Source of the DNA: Candidatus Woykebacteria bacterium GWB1_45_5
GTDB lineage: Bacteria; Patescibacteriota; Microgenomatia; Woykebacterales; RBG-16-39-9b
Assembly (NCBI GenBank): GCA_001816645.1
Contig: MHCO01000052.1
Location: 7,411-28,120, forward strand
Direction: 5' to 3'
Length of the DNA stretch: 20,710 nucleotides
A program made the translations under genes and the position numbers. Positions 1 to 20,710 of the stretch are shown here, piece by piece (the stretch's first letter is position 1; the number at the start of each line of letters is the position of its first letter). The notes under the pieces were generated by a model. That model searched no databases, had not been told where the DNA came from, and saw only the letters and a program-made list of their open reading frames with translations.

Positions 1-20
1 TGGCTCCCGAGTTCTTCGGT

Positions 21-200
21 AATTATATCTCGCTCTGGAGAAACAATAGAAAGCTTCGCTTTCTGCGTCGAGTAACTTCTACGCGAGATGTAATCTTGCG
101 ATTATATCCTGCAAGGAAACAATACGCAGGATGTAATCCTTGCGGATTATATCGTCCTCGATACAATCGGTGAACGATGTAATCGTAAGACGATTATAAC
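21..200. repeat. Tandem array of hairpin repeats with conserved arms and variable inner stems
   Basis: Three consecutive units each start with (G)ATTATATC and end with GATGTAATC, which are near inverted complements. Arms are at 21-33/83-95, 100-112/126-138 and 145-155/174-184, and a lone half-site GATTATAAC ends the array at 192-200. The bases inside the conserved arms differ between units but stay complementary: TCGC with GCGA, CTGC with GCAG, CGT with ACG. The junctions also form small hairpins (GTAATC-TTGC-GATTAT; GTAATCC-TTGC-GGATTAT; GTAATCGT-AAG-ACGATTAT), so two mutually exclusive foldings exist. The first, longer loop contains a further perfect 7-bp hairpin (48-54 with 58-64). A further unit lies at 16972-17020. 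No gene is seen here. It may be a REP/MITE-like element or a cis-regulatory RNA. Confidence 0.8.
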
Positions 201-14756: not shown

Positions 14757-16961
14757 TTACTGTTGGCTCAATATGTTTAATAAACCTACTACTTCCTTTG
14801 GAGACCTTAGATTAAATCTTGCTGCCGAGGGTGTGAAACCAACTCGGATTGAATAACAAAATGGGTATTTTGGCAAGGCATTAAAAAGGCTTTCATCTGT
14901 CCAATCGTCTCCAACAGCCAAAATAAAATCCCAATTTTCTTTTGAGAGGTACCGGGAATAAAACGCACCTTTATTAATCCCGCTAATTTTGATCTCGACC
15001 AACTTATTTCCTGGTAAAACGCTTAAGTCTAAATTTGCTGTTAGGTTCGTCAGCGTGTCGCTCATTTCTTTGGCAGCTGCTTCGCCAATTTCCACATCTG
15101 ATCCCCGATAGTGCCAGGCAAGAGAAAAAGTCTTTTCTTCAATAAAAGACTCTGGAATCCTGTCTACAAAAAGTTGCATTATTGGTTTGATTTGTTTTTT
15201 CCAAGTCTCATCCGCAGTAATAGTTGGTTTCCATGTTGAAGTATTTTCACCTCTTACCCAACCGCCGTGCTCGGCTACAAGTGTTACGTGAGGGTTGGGA
15301 AACCAGCGACCAAAGGCTTTTTTTTCTCGGCCACTTATAATCACTACTTTGTTTTTCGATTTAGCAGCCAGCATTCCAAGCAACTCAACTAGTTCTTTCG
15401 AAGGTTTGGCTTTATTGGGTTCACCATAGAAGGGGGCAAGTGTCCCATCGTAGTCTAGAAGAAAAAGGCGACGTTTACTTGCTGCATAGTATTTAACCGC
15501 TTTTTGTCTTCTTTTGCTGTTTAAGTACCTTACGGTAAGCATATTTGAAAGAGAAACAGTCCCAGATAATTTCTCAAGAAAACTCTTTGCCCATTTTTTG
15601 ACATTGTAATTTCTTAGCCTCTTTCGCATTACTCTGTTGCGTCTCGTCTGTTCGCCTGTTGTCATCTCTAACGCTTTATTCAACGCTTCGACTATTTCCT
15701 CTTTACTGTTAGGATTTACCGTAAGGGCCTCAACCAATTCTTTAGCCGATCCCGCCATTTCACTAAGAATTAAAACTCCTTTGAGATCGGGCCTTGCCGC
15801 TATGTACTCCTTTGCGATTAGGTTCATACCGTCTCTAAGTGGGGTTACTAGCGCTATATCGGCGTTGGAATATAAAGCAATTAGCTCAGCGAAATTTAGG
15901 TTGCGGTAGATATACTTTATCGGTAGCCACCTCAGCGTTCCGTATTTGCTATTTACTCTCCCAACAAGCTCATCTATTTCTCTTTTCAAATCAGCATATC
16001 TTTTAACTTTCTCCCTGGAGGGAACAACTACTAAGACAAAGGTTATTTTTTCTCGCCATTCCAAACATTGATCAAAAAATTCCTCTACGGCGTGCAAGCT
16101 TTGGAGGATACCTTTGGTGTAGTCTAGCCGAGAAACTGAAAAAACTAGCTTTGCAGCACCAATTGTTCTCTTTATTGAAGGTGTCTTACTCTGATCTAGA
16201 ATACTACGAGAAGCAGTGGAAAATTTTGTAAAATCTATCCCGATTGGAAAAACATCAACCAAGACCATCCTTTGGTCGAGCACAATCTTACCAAGCTCGT
16301 TATCGTATCCAAACAAACGTCTAGCGGCGGTTAAGAACGACTGGGCATAATCATAAGTATGAAACCCTATTAGGTCCGCTGCTAAGAGGCTTCCCGCGAT
16401 TTCTTTGTTTTGTGGTAGTAGACGAAAAACATCGTATGGCGGGAAGGGGATGTGAAGAAAGAAACCAATTGAAACAGTGGGCAGTCTATCTCTCAAAAAT
16501 TTCGGCAGCAGCATCAAATGGTAATCGTGAATCCAAAAAGTATCATCTGGCCTGGCGATCTTGACAATTTCTTCGCAGAAAAGTTGGTTGGCCCTTTGGT
16601 AAGCTTGCCATTCAGAAAGATCGTATTGGGTGTGGGCGGGAAAGGAGTGGAGAAGAGGCCAAAGTGTGTCGTTAGAAAAACCCTCATAATATTTTTCCAC
16701 CAGGCTTTCGGATAGAAATACAGGATGACAAGCAAACTGTTTAACTAGCTTGGCTTTGACTTCTTCCCTTTTTTCCTTAGGTATTGCGCCGGGCCAACCA
16801 ACCCAAAGAGTCCTCTCGTAGTCTTTACAGTCCCTATAAAAAGAGCCTAGGCTCGTGGCTAAACCGCCGATGCTTGGGGAAAATTGGTAGTTTCGTCCTT
16901 TCTTGCGGATCGTTACAGGCAGTCGGTTTGAAACAATTATCAGCCTGCCATTTTTCTTCAT
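14757..16961 (-). CDS. otsAB: Fused trehalose-6-phosphate synthase/phosphatase
   Basis: A 734-residue two-domain enzyme. Residues 1 to about 475 are a GT20 trehalose-6-phosphate synthase: NRLPVTI and SIGGLATSL at the N-terminus, TLWPLLHSF, WIHDYHL with Asp146, HIPFP, SRLDYTKGI and RDGMNLIAKEYIA, covering the UDP-glucose and glucose-6-phosphate sites of OtsA. Residues about 495-734 are a HAD-type trehalose-6-phosphate phosphatase: DYDGTLAPF with Asp503 and Asp505, SGREKKAFGRWF, AEHGGWVRG and GDDWTDESLF. The single polypeptide therefore makes trehalose from UDP-glucose and glucose-6-phosphate. E. coli uses two proteins; fusions occur in some bacteria and eukaryotes. The ATG at 16961 has at best a weak GAGAG ribosome site; a hairpin-repeat unit begins 10 bases upstream. 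Trehalose would serve as a stress protectant. Confidence 0.95.
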   Translation of the reverse strand: MKKNGRLIIVSNRLPVTIRKKGRNYQFSPSIGGLATSLGSFYRDCKDYERTLWVGWPGAIPKEKREEVKAKLVKQFACHPVFLSESLVEKYYEGFSNDTLWPLLHSFPAHTQYDLSEWQAYQRANQLFCEEIVKIARPDDTFWIHDYHLMLLPKFLRDRLPTVSIGFFLHIPFPPYDVFRLLPQNKEIAGSLLAADLIGFHTYDYAQSFLTAARRLFGYDNELGKIVLDQRMVLVDVFPIGIDFTKFSTASRSILDQSKTPSIKRTIGAAKLVFSVSRLDYTKGILQSLHAVEEFFDQCLEWREKITFVLVVVPSREKVKRYADLKREIDELVGRVNSKYGTLRWLPIKYIYRNLNFAELIALYSNADIALVTPLRDGMNLIAKEYIAARPDLKGVLILSEMAGSAKELVEALTVNPNSKEEIVEALNKALEMTTGEQTRRNRVMRKRLRNYNVKKWAKSFLEKLSGTVSLSNMLTVRYLNSKRRQKAVKYYAASKRRLFLLDYDGTLAPFYGEPNKAKPSKELVELLGMLAAKSKNKVVIISGREKKAFGRWFPNPHVTLVAEHGGWVRGENTSTWKPTITADETWKKQIKPIMQLFVDRIPESFIEEKTFSLAWHYRGSDVEIGEAAAKEMSDTLTNLTANLDLSVLPGNKLVEIKISGINKGAFYSRYLSKENWDFILAVGDDWTDESLFNALPKYPFCYSIRVGFTPSAARFNLRSPKEVVGLLNILSQQ

Positions 16962-16971
16962 TATGCTCTCG

Positions 16972-17020
16972 GATTATATCTCGCTAGAGAAAAAAGCGCG
17001 AGATGTAATCTTGCGATTAC
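16972..17020. repeat. Isolated unit of the hairpin repeat, next to the otsAB start
   Basis: GATTATATCTCGC (16972-16984) pairs with GCGAGATGTAATC (16998-17010), 13 positions with one T-G mismatch on this strand. It is followed by TTGCGATTAC, which forms the alternative hairpin GTAATC-TTGC-GATTAC. Arms and inner stem match the first unit of the 21-200 array. On the otsAB strand the arm reads GATATAATC and so supplies a perfect TATAAT (16978-16973), 11 bases before the ATG; no -35 box is evident at 16-18 bases. Confidence 0.75.
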
Positions 17021-17067
17021 AGCACAAACCACCGAAGCTACTGTATTGGTTTTGAGACTACTGACAA

Positions 17068-17229: not shown

Positions 17230-19272
17230 CTAATTATCGGCTTCGGTGACTATAACGTCGCTATAGCCGCATTTACCCTCGTTGTGTTCATCAACATCAT
17301 ATGTCCAAAGAAGCGACTTACCGTTTCCCGATTCTATCTTATGAGATTCATTTTGCACAAAATGCGTTATGCCGTCACCAGTAATGTAATTCAAATCGAG
17401 CGAAACGTTGGCCGGTTTTTTGCTGTCTTGATTGACTACAACCATGTTACAGTAAATCTTATACCTATCCGGGGCGGCCGGTGATGTCTTAATCATTTCA
17501 TAACAGTTATCTTTGGTTTTATTCCATCTGACACAAGTATCTTTTAACGCCCCGCATACTTCACCCAGACATGACCTTCCGGTTTCGCCAAACTCACGAA
17601 CCCAAATATCAATAGGACCGGGGATACGTACTGCATTTTTGGTAAACTCATCCTCATATTGATCCGTTTTTGCTTTCTGTGATTGATCCGTTTCCGCTTT
17701 TTCTATTGGTTTTGGATCCTTTGTCTTAGAATCTTGCTTGAACGGATAAAATAAAAACCCTAAAGCACCAGCAATCGCTGTTATAACAAATGTGATTAGA
17801 AGAATAATTAGCAAGATTTCTATGCTTAATTTCTTTTTTCCACTTTCGTTATCTTGCTTTCTTCTACGATAAATAGCATAAATTATTCCTGCCAAAATAA
17901 GCCCAAAAGCTATTGCCGACGAACATGCGATAACTAAAATGGGCAGTGATTTAGCACTTCTGACCTGTTGGCTGGCCGAACTAGTGGCCTGTGAATTCGT
18001 CTCCTTCTTATCACCCAGAGCGTAAAAATTTCCTCCTTCGTCTCCAAAATAAATCGTGCCGTCGCGGCCTACTGCGGGTGAAGAAACAATCCCGCTACCG
18101 CTTTCGGTTTTCCATCTCCAGAGCTCTTTGCCGGCTGTATCAACGGCATATACTGTGTCAAAAACGTCGGCGAAAACTAATACTCCGTCTTTTGAAAGTG
18201 CTGCGCTAGTACAAATCGTCTCTTTACCAGGATACCCTTCAAACAATTTTGGGTCCCGTCCCACCTTTACATCAAAACGCCACATTTCTTTGCCGGTTTT
18301 TTGGTCAAAGGCATAAAAGTTCCCATCCCAGGAACCGATATAAACGTTTCCGTCACTACCGACAGTCGGTATGGCACTGATGCCGCCCCCGGTCTTAAAC
18401 CGCCATTTTTCTTTGCCATCAGGATTGAGAGCGTAAAAGATACCTTCTTTTGAACCGCTAAATATCGTTCCGTCACCTCCAATCGCTGCTGGTCCTTCGA
18501 GCCACTGCTCTAGAACAAATTCCCACTTTTTCTTTCCATCCGGAGTCAATGCTATGACTCTCCCCCTATTATCAACCGGGTTGGCTGCTCCGGAGATAAC
18601 CGTACCGTCATCCAAAACACTTGGCACTATAGTCACACCTGATGGCTCGGGAGAGAACCATTTCTTGGTTCCGTCGGAATTTAGGGCATAAAGGCCTGAA
18701 CCCTCACTATTTTTATCAAACCGAGCCGTGCCAATATAAACAGTTCCGTCAGGACCAATATTCGGTCCGTTCCAAAAATCATTATGCCATTTGATCGGAA
18801 AACGCCATTTTTCACTGCTATCAGGGTTTAAGGCATGAAGATAACCAGAAGCGCTATTAATATAAATAGTACCGTCCTTGGCGATAGCAGGACTTGCCAT
18901 TATCGCTTTTGAAGTATTCCACCTTGGATCATACGACGGCTCGGTTAACTTAACTTTCCATTTAACCGAGCCGTTTTTGTTGAATGCGTAAAAAACTCCG
19001 TCATGTGATCCCACATAGACTGTCCCGTCCGCCCCAATAGCCGGCGATGATTCTATTGAGCTTCCTGTCTTATAGCTCCAAAGCACTTCTTTTTTGTTTT
19101 TCCCCAAATCATAAGGGCTATTGTTTGTATGCCTTTGGTCGTGGCCAAAAAGCGGCCAGGGCGAATCGGCTGGCTGGGCTTCTACATTTGGAATAAAAAT
19201 GTAAGCCGACAAGAAGGTAAGTAAAAGAAGTATACACAAATTTATCTTTGTTTTTTTATCATTTCTTATCAT
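17230..19272 (-). CDS. Surface beta-propeller protein (PQQ-like repeats) with TM hairpin and six-Cys outer domain
   Basis: A 680-residue protein. Signal peptide 1-32 (cleavage likely in VEA-QPADS). Residues about 33-425 are PQQ-like/WD-type beta-propeller repeats with the recurring pattern SSPAIG.DGTVYVGS.DG.FYA.N..G..KW, about eight blades or partial blades. Two transmembrane helices follow (about 442-467 and 481-508) with a short basic loop RRRKQDNESGKKK, then an outer domain (about 540-680) with six cysteines (SC, VC, TC, NC, YC and KC), suggesting disulfides. The propeller and the Cys domain should both lie outside. No dehydrogenase catalytic residues are apparent, so cofactor use is doubtful; a binding or assembly role is more likely. 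The start overlaps the preceding paralogue by 14 bases, so the two are co-transcribed. Confidence 0.82.
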   Translation of the reverse strand: MIRNDKKTKINLCILLLLTFLSAYIFIPNVEAQPADSPWPLFGHDQRHTNNSPYDLGKNKKEVLWSYKTGSSIESSPAIGADGTVYVGSHDGVFYAFNKNGSVKWKVKLTEPSYDPRWNTSKAIMASPAIAKDGTIYINSASGYLHALNPDSSEKWRFPIKWHNDFWNGPNIGPDGTVYIGTARFDKNSEGSGLYALNSDGTKKWFSPEPSGVTIVPSVLDDGTVISGAANPVDNRGRVIALTPDGKKKWEFVLEQWLEGPAAIGGDGTIFSGSKEGIFYALNPDGKEKWRFKTGGGISAIPTVGSDGNVYIGSWDGNFYAFDQKTGKEMWRFDVKVGRDPKLFEGYPGKETICTSAALSKDGVLVFADVFDTVYAVDTAGKELWRWKTESGSGIVSSPAVGRDGTIYFGDEGGNFYALGDKKETNSQATSSASQQVRSAKSLPILVIACSSAIAFGLILAGIIYAIYRRRKQDNESGKKKLSIEILLIILLITFVITAIAGALGFLFYPFKQDSKTKDPKPIEKAETDQSQKAKTDQYEDEFTKNAVRIPGPIDIWVREFGETGRSCLGEVCGALKDTCVRWNKTKDNCYEMIKTSPAAPDRYKIYCNMVVVNQDSKKPANVSLDLNYITGDGITHFVQNESHKIESGNGKSLLWTYDVDEHNEGKCGYSDVIVTEADN

Positions 19273-20710
19273 TTCTGTACTGTTCTGGCCAAGTGGTATT
19301 TGGACAGTTTTGCTGGATCCACTTTGACTCGTCGTTTGTTAGATCTTTTGTGGTCCTCCCCCCATAGGCGCCGTAAAATCCATTTTCCCAAGTACCATAG
19401 ATATGGTGCGGGCACTTGTCGTTCTCACTATTGCCGGTATCTGTTTGCGGAGTATTTGTATTTTGGCCTTGATTTTGTGCCTCAGGCAGAGTCGTATTTT
19501 TGCAGCTCGACTTAATTTGCTCGTGTTCTTTAACAGAAATATCTTTTTGCACAGCTTTATTATTCTCCCAATAAACTGCATAATATGCATTTTCTCCTCG
19601 TTGATATACGTTTTTGGGACACGATATATGGGTGGTATTATCCTTTTCTTGAGAAGCGGCAGGCGTGCTAACTTTTTTAGTATTTATAAAAAACATATAG
19701 CTTGAACCTCCAAGGGAACCAGCGAAAATCAAGAATATCACGCAGATAATAATCTTATGGTTTTTGCTAAATTCATAAACACTAAGAAGTTTTCCGGAAA
19801 GTTTCTTTCGCAATAAAAAGATAACGAGGTAAAAAATCAGAATAGTTCCCAGTAAATAAGTAGTTGCAAGACCAATAGTTAGCAGATATTTTGACATAAA
19901 TCCCAATTCTTTTTTGCCGGTGGCAGAAGAACTGCTCGCTGATACCCCTTTATTGGGCCCGAAAGCCAAAAGCTCGCCCGGAACTGTCGTAACATAAACT
20001 GTGCCGTCGGCACCAATGGCGGGTGAAGCAACAATTCCTCCCCCTTCGATCTTGGATCGCCATTTTTCTTCTCCGTCCTTAGAATAAGCGAAAAACAATC
20101 CCATAGTTGAGCCAAAATAGAGAGTTCCGTCCGCAGAGATCGCCGGCGAAGAACTTAATGATTCATAAACGCTTTCGCTTTCGGGTATTTGAACCCGCCA
20201 TTTTTCTTTGCCTTGTGCATCATAAGCATAAAATGTTCCTCCCCAGTCGCCAAAATATATCGTTCCGTCATTTGCGATAGCGGGAGTAATGCTTTCTCCT
20301 TGGGAAAGAGGAACTCTCCATTGTTCTGTGCCGTCAGGATTTAAGGCATAAAAATTGGCATTTCTAGGATCATCCTTGCCCTTAGTACCAAAATAAATTG
20401 TTCCGTCTTTCCCAATCGCAGGAGAACCCTCTATTACGCCGTTATCAGGCCAAAAACTCCATTTAGTAGAGCCGTCGGGATTGAAAGCAAAAAGCTTCAT
20501 TTCAAACGGGTGGTCATTCTCTCTAGATTCACTCGTTCCCAAATAAACAGTGCCGTCATCGGCGATAGCGGCAACTGAATTCGATCCGCCAGCCGAACCG
20601 TTGGTTCGCTCCCACTTTTTGGTGCCGTCAGGGTTAAAGGCGTAAACATAGCCGGGTTTCTCCATTTCTTTGCCGGTTTCTCGCGGCGGGGATATTTTGG
20701 AAGAAACATA
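19259..20710 (-). CDS. Paralogous surface beta-propeller protein with TM hairpin and duplicated Cys module (5' end beyond window)
   Basis: The last 483 codons of a gene whose start lies beyond the right edge: the frame is open to base 20710, and the first ATG (20665) falls inside a propeller blade. PQQ-like blades (GTIYFGT...FYALNPDGTEQWR and similar) are followed by two helices (SKYLLTIGLATTYLLGTIL... and IIICVIFLIFAGSLGG...) separated by a short basic segment. The outer C-terminal tail carries two copies of a small module, CPKNVYQRGENAYYAVY...SSC and CPHHIYGTWENGFYGAY...QNC, joined by an Asn/Gln/Thr-rich linker. Domain order matches the downstream 17230-19272 gene, but the Cys domains are unrelated by eye. 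The 14-base overlap with that gene indicates one operon. Function unknown; attachment or envelope assembly is inference. Confidence 0.8.
   Translation of the reverse strand, partial: YVSSKISPPRETGKEMEKPGYVYAFNPDGTKKWERTNGSAGGSNSVAAIADDGTVYLGTSESRENDHPFEMKLFAFNPDGSTKWSFWPDNGVIEGSPAIGKDGTIYFGTKGKDDPRNANFYALNPDGTEQWRVPLSQGESITPAIANDGTIYFGDWGGTFYAYDAQGKEKWRVQIPESESVYESLSSSPAISADGTLYFGSTMGLFFAYSKDGEEKWRSKIEGGGIVASPAIGADGTVYVTTVPGELLAFGPNKGVSASSSSATGKKELGFMSKYLLTIGLATTYLLGTILIFYLVIFLLRKKLSGKLLSVYEFSKNHKIIICVIFLIFAGSLGGSSYMFFINTKKVSTPAASQEKDNTTHISCPKNVYQRGENAYYAVYWENNKAVQKDISVKEHEQIKSSCKNTTLPEAQNQGQNTNTPQTDTGNSENDKCPHHIYGTWENGFYGAYGGRTTKDLTNDESKWIQQNCPNTTWPEQYRNDKK

Follow-up and report, generated by a model that had tools for sequence, protein, structure and literature searches.

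A dispersed, TATAAT-flanked repeat family of Candidatus Woykebacteria is probably a miniature mobile element found at promoters

The repeats described here very probably belong to a family of non-coding miniature mobile elements that insert at TATAAT, which is often the -10 box of a promoter. We observed dispersal of the copies, empty orthologous sites, hexamers at both ends of the element, a position at promoters, and covariation of all four of its helices. The stretch of DNA analyzed (the window; 20,710 nt) comes from a genome, G000, with 882,399 bases in 55 contigs and a completeness of 92.5%. The host belongs to Candidatus Woykebacteria, which we take to be small-genomed, uncultured members of the Microgenomates group of Patescibacteria. 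In a comparison of one protein, the nearest named records were two Candidatus Woykebacteria, with 76-79% identity.

Copies in the window

The window contains 2 of the 46 sites found in its own genome, an array at 22-198 and a single copy at 16973-17021. A first-pass annotation had described three tandem units plus a half-site at 21-200, and the arms and inner stems are indeed present there. Unit 1 (22-106, plus strand) opens with AATTATATC at 21-29, with one mismatch, and is composed of ATTATA at 22-27, a core, the arm GATGTAATC at 87-95, and a closing ATTATA at 101-106. It carries a nested insert of 36 nt at 47-82 (plus strand, TAGAAAGC..CTAC), which is itself a hairpin and recurs in further copies. 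In units 2 and 3 the arms begin at 100 and 145, respectively, and the half-site corresponds to 192-200. Unit 2 (101-151, plus strand) has the inner stem CTGC/GCAG, while unit 3 (146-198, plus strand) has a GT/AC inner stem and matches the model R1 at 145-184. As in other arrays, adjoining units have one ATTATA in common, so that the hexamer at 101-106 belongs to units 1 and 2 and that at 146-151 to units 2 and 3, with 22-27 and 193-198 closing the array on the outside.

The second site (16973-17021, plus strand) is a single near-consensus copy that was absent from the first-pass annotation, with ATTATA at 16973-16978 and the right hexamer ATTACA at 17016-17021. It adjoins an otsA-like gene (14757-16961, minus strand; Pfam glycosyltransferase family 20 and trehalose-phosphatase). 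Read on the minus strand, its left hexamer is a TATAAT at the -10 position (16973-16978), 11 nt ahead of the start codon of this gene. Unit 2 scored 65.0 bits and the second site 62.2 bits, and these scores are not independent because the window supplied three of the 8 copies on which R1 was built. The window holds 22 occurrences of GATTATATC with at most one mismatch, where 4.8 would be expected, and none of 100 shuffles was as high.

Other repeats were also seen in the window. Two adjacent PQQ-like beta-propeller proteins, whose DNA is rich in internal repeats, are encoded at 17230-20665, and three overlapping 24-nt repeats (GGTTCTTCA..) with 15-nt spacing lie at 1820-1873 within a small minus-strand ORF.

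Structure of the element and its end hexamers

When copies were aligned with their flanks, conservation ended at ATTATA on both sides, giving ATTATA-core-ATTATA between unconserved bases. The core comprises 36-45 nt in the 39 units parsed, out of 45 distinct full units. The element is gene-less and about 45 bases long, and its ATTATA is TATAAT on the opposite strand. The fixed outer arms recognized earlier are real, but the unit boundary has to be redrawn, as the arms include the flanking hexamer. Likewise, the junction hairpins do covary, but they are the right part of the same element and not separate structures. No long terminal inverted repeats were seen by eye (left end TATCTCGC; right end, read inward, TAATCGCAA), and the hairpins are internal. 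The core has five segments, x, x', z, y, and y', which can fold in two ways. One has two local hairpins (x with x' and z with y), and the other combines a long hairpin (x with z) with a hairpin on the right (y with y').

Among 66 units, two of them doubtful, the left hexamer was exactly ATTATA in 43 of 57 outer-left units, and the TATA beside the core was kept in 11 of the 14 variants. The right hexamer was found in 58 units and missing from 8; it was exact in 48 of the 58, and 8 of the 10 variants kept the ATTA beside the core. Left hexamers thus vary chiefly at positions 1-2 and right ones chiefly at positions 5-6, so a 6-bp target duplication is not proved. As judged from these sequences, the pattern would fit a TA duplication inside a preferred ATTATA, as in TIR MITE/IS630-like elements. 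It would also fit strand exchange at the middle of a common hexamer, or insertion after a fixed target with a right end owned by the element. With a fixed target present and the hexamer on both sides, the right hexamer copy could derive from the target or from the element.

Two further small repeats are found inside copies. The second hairpin repeat (TAGAAAGC..GCTTTCTGCGTCG..CTAC), which several copies carry within their loop, is present at 47-82 of the window and in G000 at C14:11064, C24:4624, C50:3311, and C33:17416, and it is tandem in one locus (L154) of a related genome, G002. A third palindrome (CCCGCCTGCAACGC..GCATTGCGGGCAGG, with variants) is placed between GATG and TAATC of several copies, at L057, L058, L065, and L155 in G000 and at L156 in another genome, G006.

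Copy number and distribution

A genome-wide search with the two arms found the exact pattern 9 times in G000, against 0 for a reversed-pattern control. At E<=1, R1 gave 58 rows in this genome; removal of 5 opposite-strand duplicates left 53 in 42 clusters, and some of the weakest among them (E above 0.01) may be chance matches. A half-element search added 4 left halves and brought the count to 46 sites, far from the few or no other copies that the first-pass annotation had considered as a case against a family. An identical 49-bp unit is present at 5 sites of G000 with differing flanks and at 1 site in G006.

R1 matched 9 of 94 genomes, G000 included, although the match in G046 (E 0.009) is probably due to chance. 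The wider model R2 matched 26 of 373 genomes of the class, own genome included; these were 7/7 in the own family, 15 in family f4, and 4 in family f8, with 0 in the other families sampled. The R2 copy numbers are minimum values, as 15 candidates per genome were scored. Two half-element patterns gave 0 exact matches in viral contigs, and the 2 matches of a loose pattern there were taken as chance by eye. Plasmid and phage collections queried with one 49-nt unit gave no match. In half-element searches of three genomes for an autonomous partner, the inspected matches were nested or degenerate copies only.

Empty orthologous sites

Mobility is indicated by two protein-coding genes. The murA gene of G000 (431 aa) contains an in-frame 45-bp copy arranged as TTT-TATAAT-core-TATAAT-TTTAATTGG; the gene passes an NCBIfam subfamily cut-off and falls just under that of the murA equivalog model. 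MurA is present in 13 of 14 genomes searched. All 7 compared sequences (6 genomes) are without the insert; the site reads TATAAT in 3 of them and departs from it by one letter in the other 4. These were the 7 of 14 relative loci that passed the motif and were hence comparable, the other 7 being left out. Similarly, a metallo-hydrolase gene of G247 (NCBIfam metal-dependent hydrolase, under its cut-off) has an in-frame 45-bp copy. This gene is present in 16 of 17 genomes, and none of the 15 other orthologues has the element. Twelve of them run straight through the site, while those of G207, G168, and G346 show additional residues of another kind at this point, which we could not relate to the element. 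Exact ATTATA is found at the site in five (G035, G207, G168, G120, and G346). All of these empty sites are from other genera and not from the same species. The simplest reading of the murA and hydrolase alignments is that each segment was gained at TATAAT/ATTATA, adding 45 bp. The different insertion in the G346 hydrolase (L245) is in frame, about 40 aa long, and located at the ATTATA used by the element in G247. A PDB comparison of the hydrolase was too distant for placing the insert.

Two other loci were considered as empty sites. The region upstream of the YchF gene in two Woykebacteria records has no copy, but the DNA is not alignable and was therefore unusable. For the window array, 5 of 280 class genomes matched; G000 and G002 are both occupied, and the other three matches were short and near the threshold. 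G002 is syntenic with the window array locus in part only.

The array flanks in the window (1-21 and 199-255) are 94-97% identical to those of the array in G002 (L179 2562-2788). G002 belongs to another genus, and its array flanks are more conserved than a nearby matching stretch (85%). This conservation might reflect an RNA or a promoter that has escaped recognition, or else a binning effect. An Rfam search of the window and the array gave a tRNA alone at the gathering threshold, with one sub-threshold match at the array of 16.2 bits against a cut-off of 60, and the related G002 locus gave no Rfam match.

Relationship to known elements and the question of the enzyme

The element resembles REPINs, which are described in the source as short, non-coding, and dispersed, with two palindromes that form one long hairpin or two and with occasional tandem clusters (PMC3116915). 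The long hairpin or two short hairpins by which REPs and REPINs are recognized are also found in the element. However, the GTAG end tag of REP/REPIN sequences is not conserved in it; its ends are TATAAT hexamers, which appear as ATTATA or a close variant in the 39 parsed units. Many copies of the element lie just before start codons, whereas REPs are reported mostly near the 3' ends of ORFs (PMC3733652). The PATEs of Haloquadratum, one form of which is only 52 bp, are also similar, having near-terminal palindromes, no terminal inverted repeats, and a conserved terminal oligonucleotide as target in the description available (PMC3119063). Subterminal palindromes without terminal inverted repeats, typical of PATEs and IS200/IS605 elements, are present here too. 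The PATE palindromes are said to resemble those of IS605-type elements (PMC3119063), but the element has the hexamer on both sides and no Y1 partner was found for it.

These likenesses bear on one reading, in which a REPIN- or PATE-like element owes its movement to a Y1 (IS200/IS605-type) transposase that has since disappeared or operates from another location. ATTATA would serve both as target and as cleavage sequence, and the inner arm GATGTAATC would be a guide that pairs with the two ends. We consider this more specific form of the mobile element explanation, in which the enzyme is named, possible but on balance doubtful. It agrees with the two subterminal palindromes, the lack of clear terminal inverted repeats, and insertion beside a fixed short sequence, and GATGTAATC is able to pair with either end hexamer. 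It also agrees with the long-hairpin and clover folds reported for REPINs (PMC3116915) and with the palindromes near PATE termini (PMC3119063). However, the three genomes richest in copies (G000, G002, and G006) gave no match to the Y1 transposase (PF01797), although it is present in 67 of 94 genomes. At 92.5% completeness, the absence from G000 is not absolute; by the same PF01797 search, no related IS605-type element was found there. No copy was found near 8 Y1 loci in G005, G015, G035, G066, and G078 (best E 2.2), sampled from ten Y1 matches in these five element-bearing genomes. Moreover, PATEs are said to cause no target duplication in the source description (PMC3119063). Of the earlier suggestion of a transposase-dependent REP/MITE, dispersal and mobility thus stand, while dependence on a REP-associated Y1 enzyme is unsupported. 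The search for a transposase or recombinase tied to the element covered Y1 (PF01797) and found none.

Other systems are less close. Rickettsia palindromic elements (PMC10969869) and CGTC repeats (PMC3733652) are also palindromic and may sit in frame within genes, and no dedicated transposase is known for CGTC repeats (PMC3733652). However, RPEs are about 150 bp long (PMC10969869), a TATAAT target does not appear in the RPE and CGTC descriptions as available, and the element has no conserved CGTC tag. Yeast mitochondrial GC clusters, with which double-hairpin elements are grouped as similar systems, are described as 42-nt palindromic mobile units with short direct repeat flanks and merging or shuffling of units (PMC4478555). 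They differ in being organelle DNA with AG or ACT flanks (PMC4478555), and they are not known to be related to the element in sequence. Literature searches on Patescibacteria, Microgenomates, Woykebacteria, and TATAAT targets, which covered subscription journals in part, found no description of this family. In structure the element comes close to REPINs and PATEs, but it lacks their tags, and no Y1 partner was found for it.

Folding and covariation

The covariation described earlier is confirmed: the inner stems change together with their partners far beyond chance, and pairing is constrained. The covariation score on 8 copies was reached by 0 of 500 shuffles, and a second such test likewise gave 0/500. 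Permutations, which take no account of the relatedness of copies, gave 0/5000 for the left and 17/5000 for the right inner stem in a first set; in 39 units, they gave 0/5000 each for the left local hairpin, the long-range stem, and the right hairpin, and 0/2000 for the fourth helix, the central hairpin. Less extreme results were obtained for pairs changed on both sides (31/500 and 38/500) and for further pair types (34/500 and 204/500). The two fold sets are mutually exclusive, and all four helices covary. With the plus strand folded as DNA, the mean expected pairs were 2.98 for the left, 5.08 for the central, 2.71 for the long-range, and 2.24 for the right helix, and six single strands had more stable folds than the shuffle mean (z -1.6 to -3.3).

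In the left, long-range inner, and central stems there were 11 G-T and 19 A-C pairs. At variable stem positions A-C is thus as common as G-T, so RNA on either strand is not favored and the suggested RNA regulator becomes less likely. Contrary signs are a slightly better fold of the plus strand in 26 of 39 units and the fixed arm GATGTAATC, which always makes one G-T pair on that strand. Its fixed G accounts for most of the excess of G-T over A-C in the right hairpin (18 vs. 1) and the long-range arm (6 vs. 0).

Covariation could also arise without selection for pairing if template switching or gene conversion copied one arm onto another (quasipalindrome correction), but this is an unlikely explanation. 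The five mutually complementary segments and the lack of a wobble preference at variable positions on either strand are in line with it, but it leaves unexplained the dispersal, the fixed end hexamers, and the covariation kept across three families of the class.

Position at promoters

Many copies lie upstream of genes, as the first-pass annotation had proposed to check, although neither the TATAAT repeats nor the promoter position formed part of it. In 22 of 46 cases, an ORF of 60 aa or more opens with an ATG 3-20 nt past the left border, compared with 1 of 46 for the right border. Once the murA artefact is set aside, 21 remain, at 3-18 nt. The distance was 6-11 nt in 17 of the 22, and a few of the borders had a variant hexamer. 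The same count for ATTATA outside elements was 8/72 (Fisher p 2e-5). In a recount with coding masked, which had slightly different edge handling and fewer loci, ATTATA outside elements had an ATG nearby in 6 of 29 intergenic cases and in 3 of 40 coding ones. The 6/29 promoter-like intergenic hexamers make the excess over other intergenic TATAAT modest, and there is no more than modest support for a promoter preference that goes further than sequence and selection. No start codon was present within 20 nt at 25 of 46 sites. Of 58 loci scanned, 4 have the start of a tRNA gene at a distance of 13-15 nt, two of them in G000.

For the far side, 47 flanks from G000 and related genomes were scanned, at least one of these 47 being an array continuation. 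TGTCAA (TTGACA on the gene strand, at most one mismatch) was found at offset 17-18 past the right hexamer in 8 of them, against 13 at 58 other offsets together. A spacing of 17-18 nt is standard between -35 and -10, so the far TATAAT still has a -35 in those cases; 39 of the 47 right flanks were without a -35 at the tested spacing. Among 52 gene starts of G000 taken as element-free, at least two of which still hold degenerate copies, TATAAT (at most one mismatch) occurred 13 times at 7-8 nt before ATG, far above other distances. This peak suggests, on the basis of sequence, leaderless transcription in G000.

Under the mobile element explanation, the element would insert at ATTATA/TATAAT in one orientation and leave a hexamer on both sides, with either all six bases or the central TA only duplicated. 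Many surviving copies would lie at promoters of tRNAs and of genes, often apparently leaderless, because TATAAT is the -10 box. The gene would retain a TATAAT beside its start, and sometimes the -35 would retain one at proper spacing on the far side, so that insertion may be tolerated and the promoter may still function. Tandem arrays, as in the window, may have arisen by further insertions into terminal hexamers, and movement probably occurs as DNA through a trans-acting enzyme that recognises the folded ends. A more specific version, which we put forward tentatively and hold to be rather improbable as a whole, is a promoter-adapted element moved by a non-Y1 enzyme. In it, GATGTAATC would act as a DNA guide pairing with the -10 hexamer at either end; being one wobble from the perfect hexamer complement, it would not itself be a target. 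A -10 box would be left on each side, and essential genes would stay expressed.

An immobile regulatory array, in which an operator or RNA element of a regulon at -10 boxes is kept by selection on expression, is very unlikely: the promoter position, the strand favored by the fixed G-T pair, and copies at the same gene sites in two genera (rpmF, L024 and L046; prfB, L060 and L047; a P-type ATPase, L013 and L044; and the window array) point towards it, but the in-frame copies in murA and the hydrolase with their empty orthologous sites, the identical 49-bp unit at 5 own sites, and A-C pairs as frequent as G-T at variable stem positions argue against it.

Conclusions

The family is very probably mobile DNA of Patescibacteria whose insertion sequence is the bacterial -10 hexamer itself, and its design appears to spare the promoter. 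It offers a testable case for the survival of selfish DNA in very small genomes, and another for a DNA fold with two states whose four competing helices covary. Should its enzyme be identified, the element would be a compact example of sequence-directed insertion.
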